This document shows positions 28,421 through 52,583 of a DNA stretch of 54,701 nucleotides, piece by piece; within the stretch, counting starts at the first letter, position 1, and each line of letters begins with the position of its first letter. The translations under genes were made by a program, and so were the position numbers. The notes under the pieces are model-generated. The model had not been told where the DNA came from and searched no databases. It was given only the letters and a program-made list of their open reading frames with translations. Source of the stretch: Thermococcus sp. (lineage in GTDB: Archaea > Methanobacteriota_B > Thermococci > Thermococcales > Thermococcaceae); NCBI RefSeq assembly GCF_015521605.1, contig NZ_WANV01000004.1, forward strand, positions 1 through 54,701, read 5' to 3'.

Positions 28421-29518
28421 GTGTTGGATGGCATTCAGGTGATTGTGTTTGCTGAGGCCGCCATGGTTTTGATAGCCGACCTGATAGCGGCAGCGTGGAT
28501 ATTCCGCATATATCTCCACAACAAGAGGAGATCAGCCCTGGCCTTTTCTCTCGCCTGGGTGTTTGACTTCCTGGCAATTCTCTCGACGGTTCTCACGAAC
28601 CCAACGTTTCAAATGATAGGTATGCTCCTTCTCCCCACGTTCTCGGGCCTTATCTTCTATGGTGCGGTGAAGTTCCTTGAGGAGGAGTCAATAACCGTCA
28701 GATACAGAACCCTCTCAATGCTCGCAGTGATGCCGGTTGCCTTTATGGTATACATGATTGGAGTGTACCTCTACACTGGAGACGCCCTGTGGTCAATAAC
28801 CAGCGCCGCCACCCTCGGCATAACCGGAGTATTCGTCATCGCCGGCGGTCTCCTTCTTAAGGAAACCGAAGAGATATACAAAAGTGCCGTCAGATATCTC
28901 TACATTAGCATAATACTGTTCGGCATCCATCTAATCCCGGCGGCACTCTTCGGGAACACCGAGTGGTACAAGGCCATAGGCTTTACCCTGTCCACTGCCC
29001 TCATAATAGGAATGGTAGTGGCGATGGTAAAGCTCACTTCATCGGAGTTCTTCATGCCGCAGGAGGGCAGGACCGCACAGCCCATTGACCTCAAGCCGGG
29101 CGTGATGGTTGTTAACGGAAAGGAGTACCAGAAGCTCAGGGAGAAGCTCAAGGACAGGCCGGTCCTGGCCTTTGTCAGGGATGTTACCCAGGTTCCGGAT
29201 GGGTGGCAGTACTATTTCGTGACGACCATACCCTTCCAGGGGCGGTTCAAGAACACCATAAACCCGACCAACCTCGCGAGGATGACCGAACTGGCGTACA
29301 AGTATCTGGAAGAATCCGCCAGGATGGGAGAGCAGGGCGTTATCGTAATCGACTGCCTTGAGTACCTGACGGTCTACAACTCCTGGGAGAGCCTCATGAA
29401 GTTCCTTTCGAAGCTCAGGGACTTTGTTATAGTTAACAAGGGTACACTGATACTCGTCATTGAGAAGGAGAGCCTTGAGAACAGGCTCTACGCCCAGCTC
29501 AGGAAGCTCATGGAGTGA
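28421..29518 (+). CDS. DUF835 membrane protein
   Basis: A 365-residue protein. About seven hydrophobic helices fill residues 8-208. A soluble domain of about 145 residues follows, with VNGKEYQKLREKLKDRPVL, YYFVTTIPFQGRF, INPTNLARM, GVIVIDCLEYLTVYN and FVIVNKGTLILVIE. This matches DUF835, a domain frequent in Thermococcales and often behind sensory or membrane modules, whose biochemical role is unknown to me. The start appears to be the TTG-type codon at 28421, behind GGGGTGAGAT, which itself overlaps the region just after the previous stop; a later start is possible. Co-transcribed with the PaaK/LuxE-like gene. Confidence 0.8.
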   Translation: MLDGIQVIVFAEAAMVLIADLIAAAWIFRIYLHNKRRSALAFSLAWVFDFLAILSTVLTNPTFQMIGMLLLPTFSGLIFYGAVKFLEEESITVRYRTLSMLAVMPVAFMVYMIGVYLYTGDALWSITSAATLGITGVFVIAGGLLLKETEEIYKSAVRYLYISIILFGIHLIPAALFGNTEWYKAIGFTLSTALIIGMVVAMVKLTSSEFFMPQEGRTAQPIDLKPGVMVVNGKEYQKLREKLKDRPVLAFVRDVTQVPDGWQYYFVTTIPFQGRFKNTINPTNLARMTELAYKYLEESARMGEQGVIVIDCLEYLTVYNSWESLMKFLSKLRDFVIVNKGTLILVIEKESLENRLYAQLRKLME

Positions 29519-29525
29519 GGACAGC

Positions 29526-29533
29526 TTTATATA
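29526..29533 (+). promoter_or_regulatory. TATA box of the H/ACA RNA gene
   Basis: TTTATATA is centred about 26 bases before base 29555-29556, which is where the first stem of the guide RNA begins. It directly follows the stop codon of the DUF835 gene, so the RNA has its own promoter. Confidence 0.75.
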
Positions 29534-29553
29534 CTCCTCTTTTCTACCCACTA

Positions 29554-29770
29554 CTGCCCCTGCGCGAGGACCCCGGGGAGAATGAACCGGGGGGCGATGC
29601 GGGGGCTACAGCTCGGCCTCAGCGAGGTCCCCGCGGGAGGGCCTTCCGCGTTACGGAGCGCAATGACCGTGGGAAACCCAGGCCGAGCACAGCTGAGGCC
29701 CGCCTGGGTTAACCCGCCCGAGTTCGCCGTGAGGCACCGATGGGGGCGGGGGTTACGGGCGGGCCATAGT
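29554..29770 (+). ncRNA. H/ACA box guide RNA with three hairpins
   Basis: This fills most of the 341-base gap between genes. Hairpin 1: basal stem 29556-29563 with 29599-29606, upper stem 29571-29576 with 29587-29592, ACA at 29608-29610. Hairpin 2: basal stem 29611-29619 with 29680-29688 (9 perfect pairs), upper stem 29630-29636 with 29667-29673, ACA at 29689-29691. Hairpin 3: basal stem 29697-29704 with 29758-29765, upper stem 29713-29719 with 29744-29750, AUA at 29766-29768. In each, the 3' guide strand starts 15 bases before the ACA/AUA, as the pseudouridylation rule requires. The loops of hairpins 1 and 2 contain GA...UGA, as expected for the L7Ae K-turn or K-loop. Pockets: 29564-29570/29593-29598, 29620-29629/29674-29679, 29705-29712/29751-29757. 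It should guide Cbf5 to three uridines. Confidence 0.85.
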
Positions 29771-29821
29771 CAGATTCTTCGTCGAAACATCAGCGGCCGT
29801 GCAGATGATGTGCCAAAAAGA

Positions 29822-45256: not shown

Positions 45257-45829
45257 ATGGGTACGGCACTTGATGCATTCATGGAGAGGGCGAGTATAAG
45301 GGAGACCGTCAGGAGGGCTATTAAAGAGGTGTCAAAAAGACCGCTGAAGGAGATATTAGCGTATGCTATAAAGGGTGAAATCGACTCAACTAACCTGTAC
45401 CGGCACCTCTACAGGAACCTGCCCGAAGGGTATCCCCGTGAGACCTTCAGGCGGTTTATATCAATGGAGAAAACTCACGAGAGAAAGGTTCGCTCAATAT
45501 TCAGCTCGCTATTCCCCGCAGAGGAGCCGCCGGATGTTCCGTTTAAGAGCTGGGCGGAGGTTCTGGCGGAGGGCGATTTCAGGCTCAGGAGCGTCGGGGA
45601 CTACCTGAAGGCACTGGAGATAGCGATGGACGCCGAACAGCTCTCCGAGGGTGTCTACACAATGCTCGCTGAGATGATGGAGGATCCCATGCAGAGGCAC
45701 ATCATGGAGGGGCTTGCGAGAGACGAGAGGGAGCACTACGAATTCCTAAAGAAGGAATACGACTTCTACTCCAAAATTGAGGCCAGAAAAGCCCTTGATG
45801 AGCTTGTCAGGGAAATAAAAGGCAGGTGA
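45257..45829 (+). CDS. Ferritin-like / rubrerythrin-related diiron protein
   Basis: A 190-residue, all-helical protein. KGEIDSTNLYRHL and SMEKTHERKV supply the first Glu and ExxH pair; EIAMDAEQLSEGVYTML and ARDEREHYEFL supply the second Glu and ExxH pair. This is the four-helix diiron pattern of the ferritin-like superfamily. No rubredoxin-type CxxC domain is attached, unlike classical rubrerythrin. Likely roles are peroxide detoxification or iron handling; not proven. Monocistronic, with its own promoter. Confidence 0.75.
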   Translation: MGTALDAFMERASIRETVRRAIKEVSKRPLKEILAYAIKGEIDSTNLYRHLYRNLPEGYPRETFRRFISMEKTHERKVRSIFSSLFPAEEPPDVPFKSWAEVLAEGDFRLRSVGDYLKALEIAMDAEQLSEGVYTMLAEMMEDPMQRHIMEGLARDEREHYEFLKKEYDFYSKIEARKALDELVREIKGR

Positions 45830-45903: not shown

Positions 45904-46022
45904 ATCTTTAAAAACTTCTTTCCTTAATCAGGTTGGGCAGTTTCCGGGCGATGGCGTCCGCCCCAAATGCCTCGAAAAGAGGCTGATGACGCCTGTTCTC
46001 TCCAGATTCGGAGGTGACGCCA
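45904..46022 (+). promoter_or_regulatory. Promoter and long structured leader of the Hyf-like operon
   Basis: TATA at ATCTTTAAAAAC (45904-45915), initiation expected near 45935, then about 88 bases of leader, long for this group of organisms. Two hairpins are seen: GGGCG (45946-45950) with CGCCC (45959-45963), and GCCTC-GAAAA-GAGGC (45969-45983). TGACGCC occurs twice (45987-45993 and 46015-46021); the second copy overlaps the ribosome binding site GAGGTGA (46011-46017). GGCGTC (45953-45958) could pair with either copy, which would mask or free the start. Confidence 0.5.
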
Positions 46023-46982
46023 GTGAACCCGGAAGGAAGAATATTTATTGGGTTAGTCCAGGTTATAGTCGTGCTCCTGCTCTCCCCCCTTATGGTAGGG
46101 ATACTCAAGAAGGCGGAGGCGAGGATAGAGTCGCGGAAGGGAATAAGCATCTTCCAGCCATACTACGACCTGGCAAAGTTCTTCAGGAAGGAGGTACTGG
46201 TCCCGGAGAAAGCGAGCTCCTTCTTTGTCTTCGCCCCGTTCATAGCGTTCGGAGCGATGCTCACACTGCCGTGGATGCTGCCCATCATCGGCAACTTCCC
46301 GAGCTGGTTCGCCCCGACTGTAGACTTCTTCGGCGGGACATTCATCTTCGGACTTGCCGCAATGGTCTCAATACTAGCAACGGAGCGGACGGGGAGCTAC
46401 TACACCGGCATAGGGGCCACCAGGGCCGTTAACTTCGGCGCCTTCGCGGAGCCGGTCCTCATAATGGTCTTCTTTGGGGTTGCCATCCTGACCGGCACCA
46501 ACAACCCCTTCCTGATGAACCACAGGATAACGGCCGAGGGCTGGTATCTAAGCCCGACACACATCCTTATAACCGCTGCCTTCTTCATGCTCCTGCTCTT
46601 CGACACGGGAAAACTGCCCATTGAATCCCACGGAAGCAACGAACTCGGCATGATCGACCAGGGGAAGGGGCTTGAGTATACTGGCCCACTCTACGCGCTC
46701 AACACCTGGGCCGGCTACATGAAGTCCTTCATCCTCATGGCGGTCTTCCTCAACGTCTTCGCCGTCCCATGGGGCCTGGCAACGAACGCTTCGCTCTATG
46801 AGGTTCTCAAGGGAACAGCTCTCCTATTCGTCAAAATGCTCGGTCTCATAGGTGCCTTCGTGGTCGTTGAAGAAACCCTCGCGAAGATAAGGCTGTTCAG
46901 GATAATAGACTACCTCTCGGCCAGCTTCCTGCTCGCGATAATGGGGGTCATAAGCTTCCTCCTCGGGGGTGTTGTACCTTGA
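46023..46982 (+). CDS. HyfC/NuoH-like membrane subunit
   Basis: A 319-residue integral membrane protein of the NuoH/HycD/HyfC/EchB family, the subunit that links the peripheral arm to the membrane arm. Conserved parts: LKKAEARIESRKGISIFQPYYDLAKFFRKE (loop contacting the hydrophilic arm), GATRAVNFGAFAEPVL, FDTGKLPIESHGSNELGMIDQGKGLEYTGP, and EETLAKIRLFRIIDYL. About eight membrane helices. The start is GTG at 46023 behind GAGGTGA; the frame opens three codons earlier. First gene of a six-gene operon. Confidence 0.9.
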   Translation: MNPEGRIFIGLVQVIVVLLLSPLMVGILKKAEARIESRKGISIFQPYYDLAKFFRKEVLVPEKASSFFVFAPFIAFGAMLTLPWMLPIIGNFPSWFAPTVDFFGGTFIFGLAAMVSILATERTGSYYTGIGATRAVNFGAFAEPVLIMVFFGVAILTGTNNPFLMNHRITAEGWYLSPTHILITAAFFMLLLFDTGKLPIESHGSNELGMIDQGKGLEYTGPLYALNTWAGYMKSFILMAVFLNVFAVPWGLATNASLYEVLKGTALLFVKMLGLIGAFVVVEETLAKIRLFRIIDYLSASFLLAIMGVISFLLGGVVP

Positions 46983-47605
46983 TGAGCGTTACAGCTGAGG
47001 TCATAAACATCCTCGGCGTCACGGTGCTCCTGACGGCGTTCCTCCTGCTCACTGAGTCCTACATGCACTCGCTCATAAACATCATAGCCTTCCAGTCCCT
47101 CCTTATAGGTGGGATACTGGCCATTATCGGCTGGGAGGAGGCCAGCCCTGAACTCATCCTCCTGGCGGGGATTACCGTGGCCTTCAGGGCGCTCCTGATA
47201 CCCTGGATACTCCAGAGGGACATACAGAACGAGCGCATCTGGCGCAACAGGGAGGTCAAGACAACACACCACGCAATAGTCGTGGGGCTGGTCCTCGCGG
47301 TAACCGCCTACTTCCTCTACGTCCCGGTTTACAGGATAACTGGGGACTGGAACGGGGTTATACCCTTCATACTGCTCTTCCTCAGCATGCTCATCGTCGT
47401 CGGAAGAAGGAACGCGATGGCCCAGATAATCGGCTACATAAGCGAGGAGAACTCCCTCCTCTACCTTGCAGCAGTGATGACGTCCATGCCCCTAATCCTG
47501 GAGTTCGGAATCCTGCTCGACATGATAGCCTTCGTCCTGCTCGCGGTTATCCTTGGAGCGGAGAAGCGCTACGGCCCAATAGAGGTGGAGGAGCTGGTGG
47601 GGTGA
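46982..47605 (+). CDS. HyfE-like membrane subunit
   Basis: A 207-residue membrane protein of the hydrogenase-4 component E family, which combines a NuoK/MrpC-like part with extra helices. ESYMHSLINIIAFQSLLIGGILAI holds the NuoK-like helix; the C-terminal half reads GRRNAMAQIIGYISEENSLLYLAAVM. The start ATG 46982 shares one base with the preceding stop; GGGGGTG precedes it. It belongs to the proton- or sodium-handling membrane arm. Confidence 0.87.
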   Translation: MSVTAEVINILGVTVLLTAFLLLTESYMHSLINIIAFQSLLIGGILAIIGWEEASPELILLAGITVAFRALLIPWILQRDIQNERIWRNREVKTTHHAIVVGLVLAVTAYFLYVPVYRITGDWNGVIPFILLFLSMLIVVGRRNAMAQIIGYISEENSLLYLAAVMTSMPLILEFGILLDMIAFVLLAVILGAEKRYGPIEVEELVG

Positions 47606-47609
47606 TAAC

Positions 47610-48965
47610 ATGGAAGCAGTGGTTTACCTCCTCTTACTCCCCCTCATCGCCTCAATTCTCTCCCTAGCGGGCGAGAGGTGGGGACGGGCCCTGACGCCTG
47701 CCTTTGCATTCGCAACGGCCATCCTCTCGACCCTGATGCTCTACGGGGGAAGGACCGTCTCAACGCCGAACCTCTACGCTGACTGGTACTCGCTCGTCAT
47801 TGCCGCCATAGTCTCGTGGGTCTACCTCTTCGCATCCATGGCCTCCATCTACTACACCGAGGGACTGGAGAGGCCCTTCTTCGACCTCCGCTACTACTGG
47901 AGCATGCTCTCGCTCTTCGCCCTCACGATGAACTTTACCGCCGTGGTTTCAAACCTCGGCTGGATGTGGATCGGGCTTGAGGCCACAACGGTCGTGAGCG
48001 CCCTCCTGATACTCACGGAAGGCGAGAAGAGGAACGTCGAGGGGGCATGGAGGTACATGATAGTCGCCTCGGCGGGGCTTGGGATAGCCTTCCTCTCGGT
48101 GATCTTAGCCTACGCTTCCGCCGGAACCCTCGACGTCAGGAGCCTGACGTTCACCCAGAAGGAAGCTCTCCTGGTCTCCACCCTTGCTCTGATTGGCTTC
48201 GGCACCAAGGCCGGCCTCTTCCCGATGCACGGCTGGTTGCCTGACGCCCACGGAAGTGCCCCTTCACCGGTCAGCGCCATGCTCTCCGGAACGCTCCTTC
48301 CGACGGCCCTGCTCGTCTACTACAGGGTTCTAAGCGCGTCGGCATGGAATGCTCCAGCGAAAGTTACGCTCCTCTTTGGAATCCTCACACTCCTTGCCGC
48401 AGCCCTGCTGATGGCGTCCCAGAGGTTCCTCAAGAGGTTGCTCGCCTACTCCAGCATGGACATGATGGGGGTAGCGGCAATAGGCCTCGGCCTGGCCCAC
48501 TACCACCCTGCCTTGCTAAAGCTGGTCTTCCTCCTCCTGGCAGTCCACGCCTTCTCCAAGGGGGCCCTCTTCATAACCGCCGGCAGCGTAATGAGGGCCT
48601 ACGGAACTCACGAGATAGCGGGAATAGGGGGCCTCATGGACTCAAACCCCATGAGCGGCCTCTCATTCGTCCTCTCGTCCCTGTCCGTGACTGGAAGTCC
48701 CCCGTTCGGGACGTTCATAGCGGAACTCGGAATAATAGGGGTCACCCTGTCAAGGAGCTACTGGTGGGCGTTCTTTGTGGGGACGGGCCTGTTGCTCTCC
48801 TTCCTGGCCCTGAACTGGCACTCGGCCAGGATGGCCTTTGGCGACGGAGAAAGGCGGGAGGTTCCCCTAGGAGAGGGGGCCATAGCGCTCACCATGACCC
48901 TGACGGCCCTTGGGATAAGCCTCTACGCGTGGTATCTGGTCATAACGGGAGGTCTGGTAATATGA
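47610..48965 (+). CDS. HyfF/NuoN-like antiporter-type subunit
   Basis: A 451-residue member of the Mrp-antiporter-like/NuoLMN family. LGWMWIGLEATTVVSALLIL has the conserved Glu in helix 5. LALIGFGTKAGLFPMHGWLPDAHGSAPSPVSAMLSG has the Lys and the broken helix signature. LLAYSSMDMMGVAAIGLG and HAFSKGALFITAG (second Lys) follow. About 13 membrane helices. Start ATG 47610 behind GGGGTGAT. It ends in an ATGA overlap with the next gene. Confidence 0.92.
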   Translation: MEAVVYLLLLPLIASILSLAGERWGRALTPAFAFATAILSTLMLYGGRTVSTPNLYADWYSLVIAAIVSWVYLFASMASIYYTEGLERPFFDLRYYWSMLSLFALTMNFTAVVSNLGWMWIGLEATTVVSALLILTEGEKRNVEGAWRYMIVASAGLGIAFLSVILAYASAGTLDVRSLTFTQKEALLVSTLALIGFGTKAGLFPMHGWLPDAHGSAPSPVSAMLSGTLLPTALLVYYRVLSASAWNAPAKVTLLFGILTLLAAALLMASQRFLKRLLAYSSMDMMGVAAIGLGLAHYHPALLKLVFLLLAVHAFSKGALFITAGSVMRAYGTHEIAGIGGLMDSNPMSGLSFVLSSLSVTGSPPFGTFIAELGIIGVTLSRSYWWAFFVGTGLLLSFLALNWHSARMAFGDGERREVPLGEGAIALTMTLTALGISLYAWYLVITGGLVI

Positions 48966-50167
48966 AGGCACTCTCCGCTGTGTTCAGGAAGGGCGGGAAG
49001 TATCTGACGGTCTGGCTCGACTACGGGAGCGGTAAGGCGGAGCTTGAGCTCACGGACTCTCTCCCGGACAGGAAGATAGCGCCCGCCCTTGTCGGCGAGA
49101 CCGGGCCGTACATGAAGATCCCGCCCGGAACGAACGCCGTCCCCTTAACCTTTGGCCCGGCGGCCGGTGGCCTCGGTCAGGCAGGGGCCTTCGAGATACT
49201 CACCTACGGCGAGAGGATAGTGACAATAAGGCCGGTCTACGGCTACAAGAGGCGCGGGCTGGAAAAGGCGATGCTCAACCGCCCGGTGGAGGAGTCAGTC
49301 GCGGTGCTTGAGAGGGCAGCCGGGAACTTCGCGATGGCCTACACCTACGCCTTCCTGAAGGCGATCGAGGCCAACCCGGACGAAGACGTATGGGAGGTTA
49401 GAAAAGCCCTCCTTGAGCTTGAGAGGCTCTACAACCACTTCAACGCGATACACAAGCTGGCAGAGGCGGCATCGCAGAAGGTCGCTACCATGCACTTCCA
49501 TGCTTTGGAGGAGGACGTTCTCAGGGTATTCAGCCGGCTGACTGGCCACCGCTACGGCTTCGGCTCGAACCTGCCGGGCCAGGTGAGGATTGTAGAGCCG
49601 GAGGCCATTGAAAGGCTCAAGCGGATTAAGGAGGAGTTCCGCTCGCTCAGGGAGGAGCTGCTGGAGAGCAAGATATTCATCGACCGTCTCCACACGACCT
49701 GCAGGCTCACGAGGGAAGACGTCATAGAGCTCGATGCAGTGGGCATAGCGGCGAGGGGCTCCTCCGTTCCGAGGGACGTGAGAACCTTCGACCGCTTTTA
49801 CTCATACAAACCTGTGACCTGCAATGATGGCGACGCCTTGGCGAGGCTGATGGTCAGGATTAGGGAAGTTGAGAAGTCCTTCGAGATTATAGATGGTTCA
49901 GAAGTGAGGAGTGTCCGCTCTGACCCGTCCCTTAAGGATGGCCTGAACCTTGGATTGGCTGAGGCACCCCACGGAGACGTGCTCGTTCTCGCGGAGCTTG
50001 AAGGCGGAAGGCTGAGGTGGATAGGCCTCAGAGGCGCTTCCCGCATCAACTACATCGCCTTCGCAAAGGGAATAACCGGGAACATCTTCACGGACTTCCC
50101 GTTTGGTCTTGAGAGCTTTGGTCCGAACTTTGCCGATGCCGACCTCTGGCAGGGGGGTGAGGACTGA
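48962..50167 (+). CDS. HyfG/NuoCD-like large subunit without [NiFe] ligands
   Basis: A 401-residue fused protein: an N-terminal NuoC-like domain (about 1-60, short) and a NuoD/hydrogenase-large-subunit-like domain (VETGPYMKIP-like region, RPVYGYKRRGLEKAMLNRPVEE, LELERLYNHFNAIHKLAE, GFGSNLPGQVRI). Group 4 hydrogenases have CxxC pairs near PERVCGIC and at the C-terminus (DPCxxC). Here the first region reads ERAAGNFAMAYTYAF and the protein ends FGPNFADADLWQGGED. Only two Cys remain, in unrelated places. It therefore cannot hold a NiFe centre and resembles the complex I-type large subunit. The start overlaps the previous stop. Confidence 0.88.
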   Translation: MKALSAVFRKGGKYLTVWLDYGSGKAELELTDSLPDRKIAPALVGETGPYMKIPPGTNAVPLTFGPAAGGLGQAGAFEILTYGERIVTIRPVYGYKRRGLEKAMLNRPVEESVAVLERAAGNFAMAYTYAFLKAIEANPDEDVWEVRKALLELERLYNHFNAIHKLAEAASQKVATMHFHALEEDVLRVFSRLTGHRYGFGSNLPGQVRIVEPEAIERLKRIKEEFRSLREELLESKIFIDRLHTTCRLTREDVIELDAVGIAARGSSVPRDVRTFDRFYSYKPVTCNDGDALARLMVRIREVEKSFEIIDGSEVRSVRSDPSLKDGLNLGLAEAPHGDVLVLAELEGGRLRWIGLRGASRINYIAFAKGITGNIFTDFPFGLESFGPNFADADLWQGGED

Positions 50168-50772
50168 TGTGGATGATCAAGGGGCTCAGGAAGGGCGTTA
50201 TCACGAGCAACTACCCCAACAAGGTGAGCGACGACGAGCTGTCGCCGAGCTTTCCCCTAAAAGCTCCGGAGGAGTGCCCATTCGGTGCGGGTGAGGGCGG
50301 AAAGTTCGACCCAAGGAAGTGCATCTCCTGCCGCCTCTGCAACATCCCATTTGGGAGGAAGCTCGACGTTGATGACATCAAAAACCCCCTCGACTTCAGG
50401 CGCTCGCTCCACGTCTTCTTCTTGGATGTTGGAACCTGCCACGCCTGCAACCGCGAGGTTGCCCAGCTCAAGGGCCCCTACTACGACGTCCACAGGCTCG
50501 GGATATTCTTCACGCCAACGCCGAAGCACGCGGACGTCCTACTCATCGCGGGCTGTCCGACAGAGGACATGGTACCCGTGCTGAAGGAGGCCTACGGGCT
50601 GATGCCGGAGCCGAAGCGCGTCCTCGTCCTCGGGGCCTGCTCCAGCGGTGCCCTCTGTGGAAGGAAGGTCGAGGAGATAGTTCCTGTGGACGGCTACGTG
50701 GCCGGTTGTCCCCCCAACCCAGTCCAGATAATTCGGGGACTCCTCAAGATGGCAGGGAGGGATGTAGAATGA
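50167..50772 (+). CDS. HyfI/NuoB-like small subunit with fused ferredoxin-like segment
   Basis: A 201-residue iron-sulphur subunit. The N-terminal third holds ECPFGAGEGGKFDPRKCISCRLC, four Cys that can bind one 4Fe-4S cluster, resembling half of a HyfH/NuoI ferredoxin. The rest is the NuoB/hydrogenase small subunit fold: GTCHACNREV, LLIAGCPTED, GACSSGALCGRK and AGCPPNPVQIIRGLL supply the proximal 4Fe-4S site (with extra Cys). It starts at ATG 50167, one base overlapping the previous stop, behind GGGGGTGAGG. It should pass electrons towards the large subunit. Confidence 0.9.
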   Translation: MWMIKGLRKGVITSNYPNKVSDDELSPSFPLKAPEECPFGAGEGGKFDPRKCISCRLCNIPFGRKLDVDDIKNPLDFRRSLHVFFLDVGTCHACNREVAQLKGPYYDVHRLGIFFTPTPKHADVLLIAGCPTEDMVPVLKEAYGLMPEPKRVLVLGACSSGALCGRKVEEIVPVDGYVAGCPPNPVQIIRGLLKMAGRDVE

Positions 50773-52583
50773 ACCCCTACTACCTGATAACCCTGGGCTT
50801 TGCGGTAACTTCCTTAATCTCGCTCGCATCGAGGAAGATCACTTACTGGCTCGACACGGCACTATCCTCAGCCCTGCTCTGTGTCCTCCTCTTTCAGCCG
50901 GGGGGCATCGACGGAACCGCCAGGTACTTCATGCTCATATCGGCCATTGTCTGGCTGACGGCCTCGCTCTTCAGCGTGGACTACGACCACTATCCAAGGC
51001 TCCTGGCCGGGTCCTTCTCCCTCGCGATGGCGGGGATGATGGTCATCCTCCTCTCCGGAGACGCGGTCACCTTCCTCGTCGGCTGGGAGGTAATGACGGT
51101 AGCGAGCTACCTCGGGATAACCGCCAAGGAAAGGGAAGGGAAGGGGGCCTACAGGTTCCTCGCCTTCGGCGAGCTGAGCGCCCTCCTAATTCTAGCAGGG
51201 TTCGGCCTCCTGACCCTCCAGAGCGGTTCAGTGGACTTCTCGGCCTGGAAAGGCTCGCCGGCCTGGGATGTTGCCTTCTTCCTGGCCGCCCTTGGCTTTG
51301 TGGTCAAGATGGCGGTCTTCCCGTTCCACATCTGGCTCCCGCAGGCCCACGGCAAAGCTCCTGCCAACCTCTCTGCCCAGCTGAGCGCCGTCCTTACTCT
51401 AATGGGCCTCTACGGGATGGTCAGGCTGCTCCTCATAGCCAGGCCCGCGGACTGGGTCGGGGCGTTCTTCCTGCTCTTTGGAGGCCTAACGGCGATCCTC
51501 GGTGCGGCTTACGCGGCCGGAACCGAGTACGTCAAGAGACTCCCAGGATACAGCACGGTCGAGAACGACGGGGTTTTGCTGGCTCTCTTCGGAGGGGCCA
51601 CCATTGCCCTGAATCACGGTAATACCGACCTGGCATCGTTCACGTTCTTAGCCCTGCTCTTCTTCGCCTTCGCCCACAGCGTCTCAAAGGGGCTGCTCTT
51701 CCTCATAGCGGGTAGACTCGAAAACGGCACCGGGAGGTTCCCTGAGGTCGTCCACGGCAGGCTTTCGAGGCTCGGCGTTGTGGCAGGCTACGCCGCCGCC
51801 CTGAGCCTCGCGGGAATCCCGCCGTTCCCGGGCTTCCTCGGGGAGTGGCTAGGCATAGAGAGCCTCCTCCAGAGCTTCAAGATACCCGACCCCAAGTTCA
51901 AGGTCCTCATGGTTTTCGTCGGCTCGCTTGTAGCCCTAACAGCTGGAATCGCGGGGGTTGCGATGAGCAAGGTAATAACCCACGGAGTCCAGAGGGCAGG
52001 GGGCAGGAAAGGGTATTCCGTCGAAGACGTAGGCTACGCCCTCTCCGCGGCCGTACTCTTCATCGTCGGGGTGCTACCGGGACTTCTCTTCCGCGTCATA
52101 AACGCACCGATGGAATCGCTGACCGGCCAGAAGGCCACCGACTTCCTCGGCGATGCGCTCGGGATAAAGGAGGGCCTTCTCGTAGTTTCCAAGGGCTTTG
52201 GTGGGATATCACCCACCTACCTGGCCCTTCTGGTCTCCATCTTCGCCGTGGGCACATACATCGTCCTCAGACCGACCACGAACCTGCGGGCAAGGCGCGT
52301 CAGGGCCTGGAGCGGTGGTCTCAGCAACCCGGAATACCCGTCGATAGCGCACTCTGCCATACTGCTCGCCACGGAGGGCTGGCTCTACGGGACGAGAGAA
52401 GAGAAAGGCCGTCTCCACTGGCGCGAGAGAATAAACCTCGCTTACAACAGGCTCGCCAGGGATTATCTGGACTTCTCCGAGTGGTTCAGACACGGGGTCA
52501 TGAGGGGCTCGGACAGCGTGTACGTCGCATACATCCTGCTCGCCGTGGCGGTGGCACTCGCCTATCTGCTTTACGCCCTCTGA
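50769..52583 (+). CDS. HyfB/NuoL-like antiporter-type subunit
   Basis: A 604-residue membrane protein of the NuoL/HyfB group. LVGWEVMTVASYLGI has the helix-5 Glu; FVVKMAVFPFHIWLPQAHGKAPANLSAQLSAVL the central Lys and signature; LPGYSTVENDGVLLALFGG and HSVSKGLLFLIAGRLE follow. LSLAGIPPFPGFLGEW is typical of the C-terminal half. It has about 14-15 helices and a long C-terminal stretch that could be the lateral helix. The start is ATG 50769, overlapping the previous stop (ATGA). Last gene of the operon; a second large ion-pumping subunit besides the one at 47610. Confidence 0.92.
   Translation: MNPYYLITLGFAVTSLISLASRKITYWLDTALSSALLCVLLFQPGGIDGTARYFMLISAIVWLTASLFSVDYDHYPRLLAGSFSLAMAGMMVILLSGDAVTFLVGWEVMTVASYLGITAKEREGKGAYRFLAFGELSALLILAGFGLLTLQSGSVDFSAWKGSPAWDVAFFLAALGFVVKMAVFPFHIWLPQAHGKAPANLSAQLSAVLTLMGLYGMVRLLLIARPADWVGAFFLLFGGLTAILGAAYAAGTEYVKRLPGYSTVENDGVLLALFGGATIALNHGNTDLASFTFLALLFFAFAHSVSKGLLFLIAGRLENGTGRFPEVVHGRLSRLGVVAGYAAALSLAGIPPFPGFLGEWLGIESLLQSFKIPDPKFKVLMVFVGSLVALTAGIAGVAMSKVITHGVQRAGGRKGYSVEDVGYALSAAVLFIVGVLPGLLFRVINAPMESLTGQKATDFLGDALGIKEGLLVVSKGFGGISPTYLALLVSIFAVGTYIVLRPTTNLRARRVRAWSGGLSNPEYPSIAHSAILLATEGWLYGTREEKGRLHWRERINLAYNRLARDYLDFSEWFRHGVMRGSDSVYVAYILLAVAVALAYLLYAL

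Follow-up and report, generated by a model that had tools for sequence, protein, structure and literature searches.

An orphan relative of complex I, encoded by six genes of a Thermococcus sp. and devoid of a [NiFe] site, stands behind a fluoride riboswitch in about 40 archaeal genomes, and for this reason its probable role is that of a fluoride-stress ion pump, rather than of the formate/hydrogen enzyme for which it was taken. Judged from sequence, regulation of the complex by the riboswitch is nearly certain and the pumping of ions likely; that the complex is a fluoride-inducible, complex I-like, redox-driven H+/Na+ pump countering the acidification caused by HF is a proposal to which we assign a probability of roughly 0.5. 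Complexes of the Ehr type (energy-converting hydrogenase-related) were already known; new is the physiological reading as a fluoride-stress complex, by which the orphan gains a testable physiological role and which hints at a way in which archaea lacking any recognised fluoride exporter could cope with fluoride.

The window (the whole stretch of DNA analysed, 54,701 nucleotides of contig NZ_WANV01000004.1) carries the six subunit genes at 46023-52583, all on the forward strand and with neighbouring ends that overlap or almost touch, in the order NuoH, HyfE, HyfF, NuoD-like, NuoB-like and HyfB (Table 1). All six had been named in an earlier sequence-only reading of this DNA, with the large subunit as NuoCD-like, and are now backed by Pfam and NCBIfam; the HyfE-like subunit has no Pfam match, and its match to the NCBIfam model 'hydrogenase 4 membrane subunit' is below the cut-off. 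The NuoH gene starts with GTG, and a second in-frame GTG lies at 46014 within the Shine-Dalgarno region. Formate dehydrogenase is absent from the operon and from the relatives' operons examined, and the statement that no electron-input gene stands alongside holds for the family, since none is conserved beside the operon. Neither an extra catalytic subunit nor any other adjoining partner gene is conserved in the relatives examined; the flanking genes vary by lineage, a UspA-like gene 3′ of the operon being found only in the SZUA-158-type genomes.

Table 1. Coordinates of the riboswitch-headed operon and its leader in the window.
Feature	Position	Strand	Support
TATA-like promoter element ctttaaaaacttct	45908..45921	+	read from sequence, unscored inference
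Fluoride riboswitch aptamer (RF01734, crcB motif)	45938..46002	+	cmscan 49 bits
Shine-Dalgarno region GGAGGTGACGCCA	46007..46022	+	predicted structure only
NuoH/HyfC-like membrane subunit	46023..46982	+	PF00146, 106 bits; conserved channel charges
HyfE-like membrane subunit	46979..47605	+	NF008556 48 bits, below cut-off of 136; conserved in family
HyfF-like antiporter-type subunit	47610..48965	+	PF00361 148 bits; NF005042 321 bits
NuoD/HycE-like large subunit without NiFe ligands	48962..50167	+	PF00346 61 bits
NuoB-like small subunit with N-terminal single-cluster 4-Cys segment	50167..50772	+	PF01058 63 bits; Cys conservation
HyfB-like antiporter-type subunit	50769..52583	+	NF005046 482 bits (cut-off 460); PF00361 97 bits

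Just upstream of the riboswitch the window encodes a rubrerythrin-family (PF02915) protein (45257-45829, forward strand), which had no counterpart next to the operon in any other lineage examined. The window also holds the HgcG (Pab40) H/ACA-type RNA (29498-29773, forward strand; 196 bits), which is typical of Thermococcales.

The riboswitch aptamer is matched over its full length (1-64 of 64) with a score well above the gathering threshold of 34 bits (E 1.3e-10) and continues straight into the Shine-Dalgarno region of the first gene; the TATA-like element would put the transcript start near the first base of the aptamer. The sequence-only reading had left the physiological role of the complex open because this leader had gone unseen. 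The sequence TGACGCC, part of the pseudoknot strand of the aptamer (45987-45996), recurs 28 nucleotides further on in the Shine-Dalgarno region (46015-46024). In the minimum-energy fold of the leader, calculated with a program that does not model the pseudoknot, the Shine-Dalgarno region pairs with TGGCGTC of the aptamer, and it can pair with ATGGCGTC of the aptamer as well. We therefore predict a translational switch in which the Shine-Dalgarno region is hidden without fluoride and free with fluoride. The pairing lies just modestly above that of shuffled sequences in the window (p 0.07); in five other leaders (L097, L101, L150, L151 and L155) the Shine-Dalgarno region is complementary to the 5′ strand of the aptamer over about 10-13 bases, above shuffles, and two of these (L150 and L097) retain the pairing despite changed bases, as co-varying versions. 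In the leaders of L152 and L154 the pairing was not seen, so that the switching mechanism there differs or is unproven.

Roughly a dozen Thermococcus genomes have close homologues of the large subunit, which also occur in Archaeoglobaceae, SZUA-158-type Euryarchaeota and DHVE2; a wider set was gathered with the HyfB model NF005046. The 5′ end of the operon could be read in 41 genomes, which are not independent events and represent about five lineages. RF01734 stands over cut-off at the operon head in 34 of them, scores more weakly in six and is missing from one. The 34 are made up of 8 of 10 Thermococcus, 19 members of a Sulfolobaceae-like family, four DHVE2, two genomes of the SZUA-158 type and G233. 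Scores within 2 bits below the cut-off (32.5, 33.1 and 33.9) were obtained for a group of three, made up of G029, G053 and L098; the motif in L097 was read by eye, and G251 and G319, which we take to be Ferroplasma, have weak matches of 26 bits; no riboswitch was found at the operon head of the clade member G184/L157. The G271 family (G271 and G255 are presumably Sulfolobaceae) numbers 31 genomes. Each of the 19 that bear HyfB carries the riboswitch on the same strand, 3.0-4.9 kb upstream; of the 12 without a HyfB-type subunit two have it and ten do not. The riboswitch has been kept even through a permuted gene order (F-L-S-B-H-E in L152 and L154), where it precedes the new first gene; without selection for fluoride control this would be difficult to account for. 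In some Sulfolobaceae-like genomes the operon seems to be decaying; HyfB frames with several in-frame stops stand behind a well-scoring riboswitch at G403:C1:1802515-1804215 and G405:C1:782404-783708.

A phylogeny of the large subunit had been suggested by the sequence-only reading. In a quick tree with some long branches, for which large subunits were sampled from both homologue sets, 17 of them, from Thermococcus, Archaeoglobaceae, DHVE2 and genomes judged Thermoplasmatales- and Sulfolobaceae-like, form a clade of their own (SH-aLRT 100) apart from the NiFe hydrogenases, the Nuo/Mbx-like proteins and three other NiFe-less complexes. The window's large subunit lacks all four Cys that would bind NiFe, as had been read before: a search for CxxC...DPCxxC, which detected one or both motifs in 24 of 24 group-4 hydrogenase large subunits used as positive controls, detected neither in any of the 17 clade members, so that an alignment error hiding the Cys pairs is ruled out. 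In the alignment to MbhL and HycE, ERMCGICSF has become ERAAGNFAM and the C-terminal DPCxxC region ends SFGLNFADADL; in some archaeal relatives the first Cys survives on its own as a remnant (ERLCGTYS in L097/L099). The best solved relatives are MbhL (6cfw_L) and HycE (7z0s_E), and the predicted model (pLDDT 81) matches the HycE and NuoD folds (7z0s_E, E 3e-18). The quinone-site His-Pro of NuoD is lost as well, GPxHP being replaced by GPAAGG, GPLTTG or GPVSSG.

That the complex is a true formate hydrogenlyase or hydrogenase, as its relatives are annotated, would agree with its fold and subunit names and with the literature label 'formate hydrogen lyase' (PMC2864571, PMC11139923). With the NiFe Cys motifs missing in 17 of 17 tree-placed clade large subunits and no conserved formate dehydrogenase in the operon this is hardly credible, and we rejected it on the missing NiFe ligands, in line with the earlier statement that the complex is not a hydrogenase. 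The label appears in Weinberg 2010, where 'formate hydrogen lyase' was named as a riboswitch target (PMC2864571), and in a 2024 review, which places it among the most frequent targets of fluoride riboswitches, with formate oxidation as the explanation (PMC11139923). From the wording of Weinberg 2010 and the loci found we infer that the label refers, in archaea at least, to this complex. Since these loci lack both NiFe ligands and formate dehydrogenase, the name presumably came from annotation, and with a NiFe-less, probably ion-pumping complex as archaeal target the explanation by formate oxidation needs changing. In a literature search we found no link of Sulfolobales, Thermococcus or Ehr to fluoride control of such a complex. 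Baker 2012 is reportedly the paper defining the fluoride regulon.

The Cys ligands of the N2-like, proximal 4Fe-4S cluster of the small subunit (CxxC, C, GCPP) are invariant in all members of the family alignment, as expected from the sequence-only reading, in which this site was retained. The fused ferredoxin segment proposed there stands in part: the N-terminal segment has one 4-Cys motif, CPxxA...CxxCxxC, kept in nearly all family members (with the spacing C-x3-C-x3-C-x3-C in DHVE2) and giving weak Fer4 matches in some (best 9e-4), but it is a single-cluster segment and not a full two-cluster ferredoxin. The designation 'ferredoxin-linked', derived from just this one 4-Cys segment, is unsupported or incomplete. 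Both antiporter-type subunits previously noted have all their proton-path Glu, Lys and His conserved (E124, K200, K275, H313 and K317 invariant in the HyfF-like subunit; E128, K201, K277, H324 and K328 conserved in the HyfB-like one), as are the channel charges of NuoH in the family. Since Fe-S ligands and ion-path residues are conserved and the NiFe and quinone residues lost, electron wire and ion path both seem to be alive, the known catalytic sites being gone.

The loss of both sites would also suit a redox-dead, Mrp-like secondary antiporter with a structural Fe-S arm, catalyzing Na+/H+ exchange under fluoride stress; HyfF and HyfB best match MrpA/MrpD, Mbh H and the antiporter-type subunits of formate hydrogenlyase, and common riboswitch targets include Na+/H+ antiporters (PMC11139923). 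We consider this doubtful, because the four N2-like and most N-terminal Cys have been retained across deep divergence, which makes an Fe-S arm without electron transfer unlikely, and because the operon is without the small Mrp partner subunits.

For the redox-driven, fluoride-induced pump we propose that fluoride enters as HF, which would acidify the cytoplasm and erode the ion gradient. Fluoride would then bind to the leader aptamer, the GGCGUC strand would be drawn into the aptamer pseudoknot, leaving the Shine-Dalgarno region, and the six subunits would be made. Electrons would run along two clusters of the small subunit, the N-terminal 4Fe-4S cluster and the N2-like one, and end at a site in the NiFe-less large subunit; the resulting conformational change would drive NuoH and the two antiporter-type subunits to H+ export or Na+/H+ exchange, by which pH and gradient would be restored while fluoride is cleared. 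The retained Fe-S chain suggests that the complex is driven by a cytoplasmic reductant, with ferredoxin as the obvious candidate for the electron donor; for this model we infer the actual response to fluoride, the direction of switching, the electron donor and acceptor and the ion moved. With its two antiporter-type subunits the complex fits the slot of the Na+/H+ antiporters, which counter HF acidification and are the most common riboswitch-associated class after the exporters (PMC11139923). The 'ion-pumping oxidoreductase' of the earlier reading is thus partly supported by the antiporter subunits and the Fe-S wire, but its role is better framed as fluoride stress than as that of an unspecified respiratory oxidoreductase.

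Alternatively, the complex could be a fluoride-insensitive energy bypass, serving to reoxidise ferredoxin or some other reductant while metal enzymes such as enolase or pyrophosphatase are blocked by fluoride. Riboswitch partners are known to include fluoride targets (PMC11139923). In L182 and L183 an inorganic pyrophosphatase-like gene, recognised by eye, adjoins the operon of the second riboswitch. We think a bypass very unlikely: the host lineages are believed to differ strongly in energy metabolism, which a general stress role fits better, and we know of no dedicated acceptor.

CrcB is encoded in the window's own genome and in 8 of 10 tested complex-bearing Thermococcus relatives; over cut-off it was found in none of the ten tested complex-bearing genomes outside Thermococcus and nowhere in the G271 family (31 genomes). 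The CLC proteins of the carriers examined are without GREGT/V, named as the mark of CLC-F (PMC11139923), and have GREGP, GEEGP or other motifs, for which reason CLC-F was rejected in these relatives. Together with the finding that in some genomes the complex is the sole riboswitch-controlled unit over cut-off, these absences favour a redox-powered complex that itself exports fluoride or HF, replacing CrcB or CLC-F where no known exporter was found. Direct export is nevertheless quite unlikely, since the ion-path residues are ordinary, the window's genome has CrcB as well, and 12 genomes of the G271 family have neither a HyfB-type subunit nor CrcB, which means that other fluoride systems exist; to our knowledge no relative of complex I moves F-. 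A CLC-family gene with CBS-like domains (L066:800-2611; G112:C72) stands divergent from the riboswitch-complex operon; its GREGP argues against CLC-F.

The Ehr complexes (PMC6349859 and references there) likewise lack NiFe ligands in their group-4-like large and small subunits and include Mrp-type antiporter subunits, and by analogy the fluoride-linked complex would work like an Ehr complex. It differs from them in its riboswitch control, and in the tree, which held three NiFe-less archaeal comparators, it forms a clade separate from the group of these three; L160, the only one of the three scanned, has no fluoride riboswitch. With formate hydrogenlyase/hydrogenase 4 of E. coli (7z0s) it shares the best fold match of the large subunit and the HyfB-, HyfE- and HyfF-type membrane subunits, but not the NiFe site, the formate dehydrogenase or the separate 8Fe ferredoxin subunit. 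By sequence, no solved structure is closer to the large and small subunits than the Mbh of Thermococcales (6cfw); here, however, there are only six genes and the NiFe site is lost. Mbx/MBS (6u8y), the hydrogenase-related oxidoreductase of Thermococcales, also has two antiporter-type subunits, but the large-subunit similarity is far lower than to Mbh (E 5e-16 versus 3e-29). Its gene set differs from this six-gene set, and both Mbh and formate hydrogenlyase outscore 6u8y_L, which agrees with the earlier view that the complex is no obvious MBX. Unlike complex I and Fpo, the complex has lost the quinone-site His-Pro, and NuoI, NuoA, NuoJ and NuoK genes are absent from the operon. The aptamer class is that of the RF01734 regulons with CrcB, CLC-F and Na+/H+ antiporters, from which this one differs in having a six-subunit redox-type complex as target.

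The genome of the window has two copies of the riboswitch, the second of which heads a crcB-containing operon; the switch class thus stands in a fluoride context in this genome. T. kodakarensis has a comparable arrangement, with the riboswitch ahead of TK0513, the neighbour of crcB TK0514 (PMC4247193).

The first gene behind the second copy (L078:3413-4279), apparently in the same position as TK0513, encodes a 288-amino-acid protein without NCBIfam match that by eye looks like a prenyltransferase/terpene-cyclase-type repeat protein. Two small proteins with coiled coils, both under the control of a fluoride riboswitch (L078:1984-2724, G000:C38, and L182:1972-2689) are homologous between the window's genome and G195, which we take to be Aciduliprofundum (34% over 110 amino acids and 31% over 97); as read from the sequences, they are a conserved fluoride-linked gene pair, with crcB as neighbour in the former and an MFS-like transporter in the latter. 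Weak fluoride-riboswitch-like matches (22-29 bits) precede pairs of MutS-like-looking proteins of about 490-510 amino acids in L184, L185 and L186, which fit the association of the riboswitch with mutS (PMC2864571).
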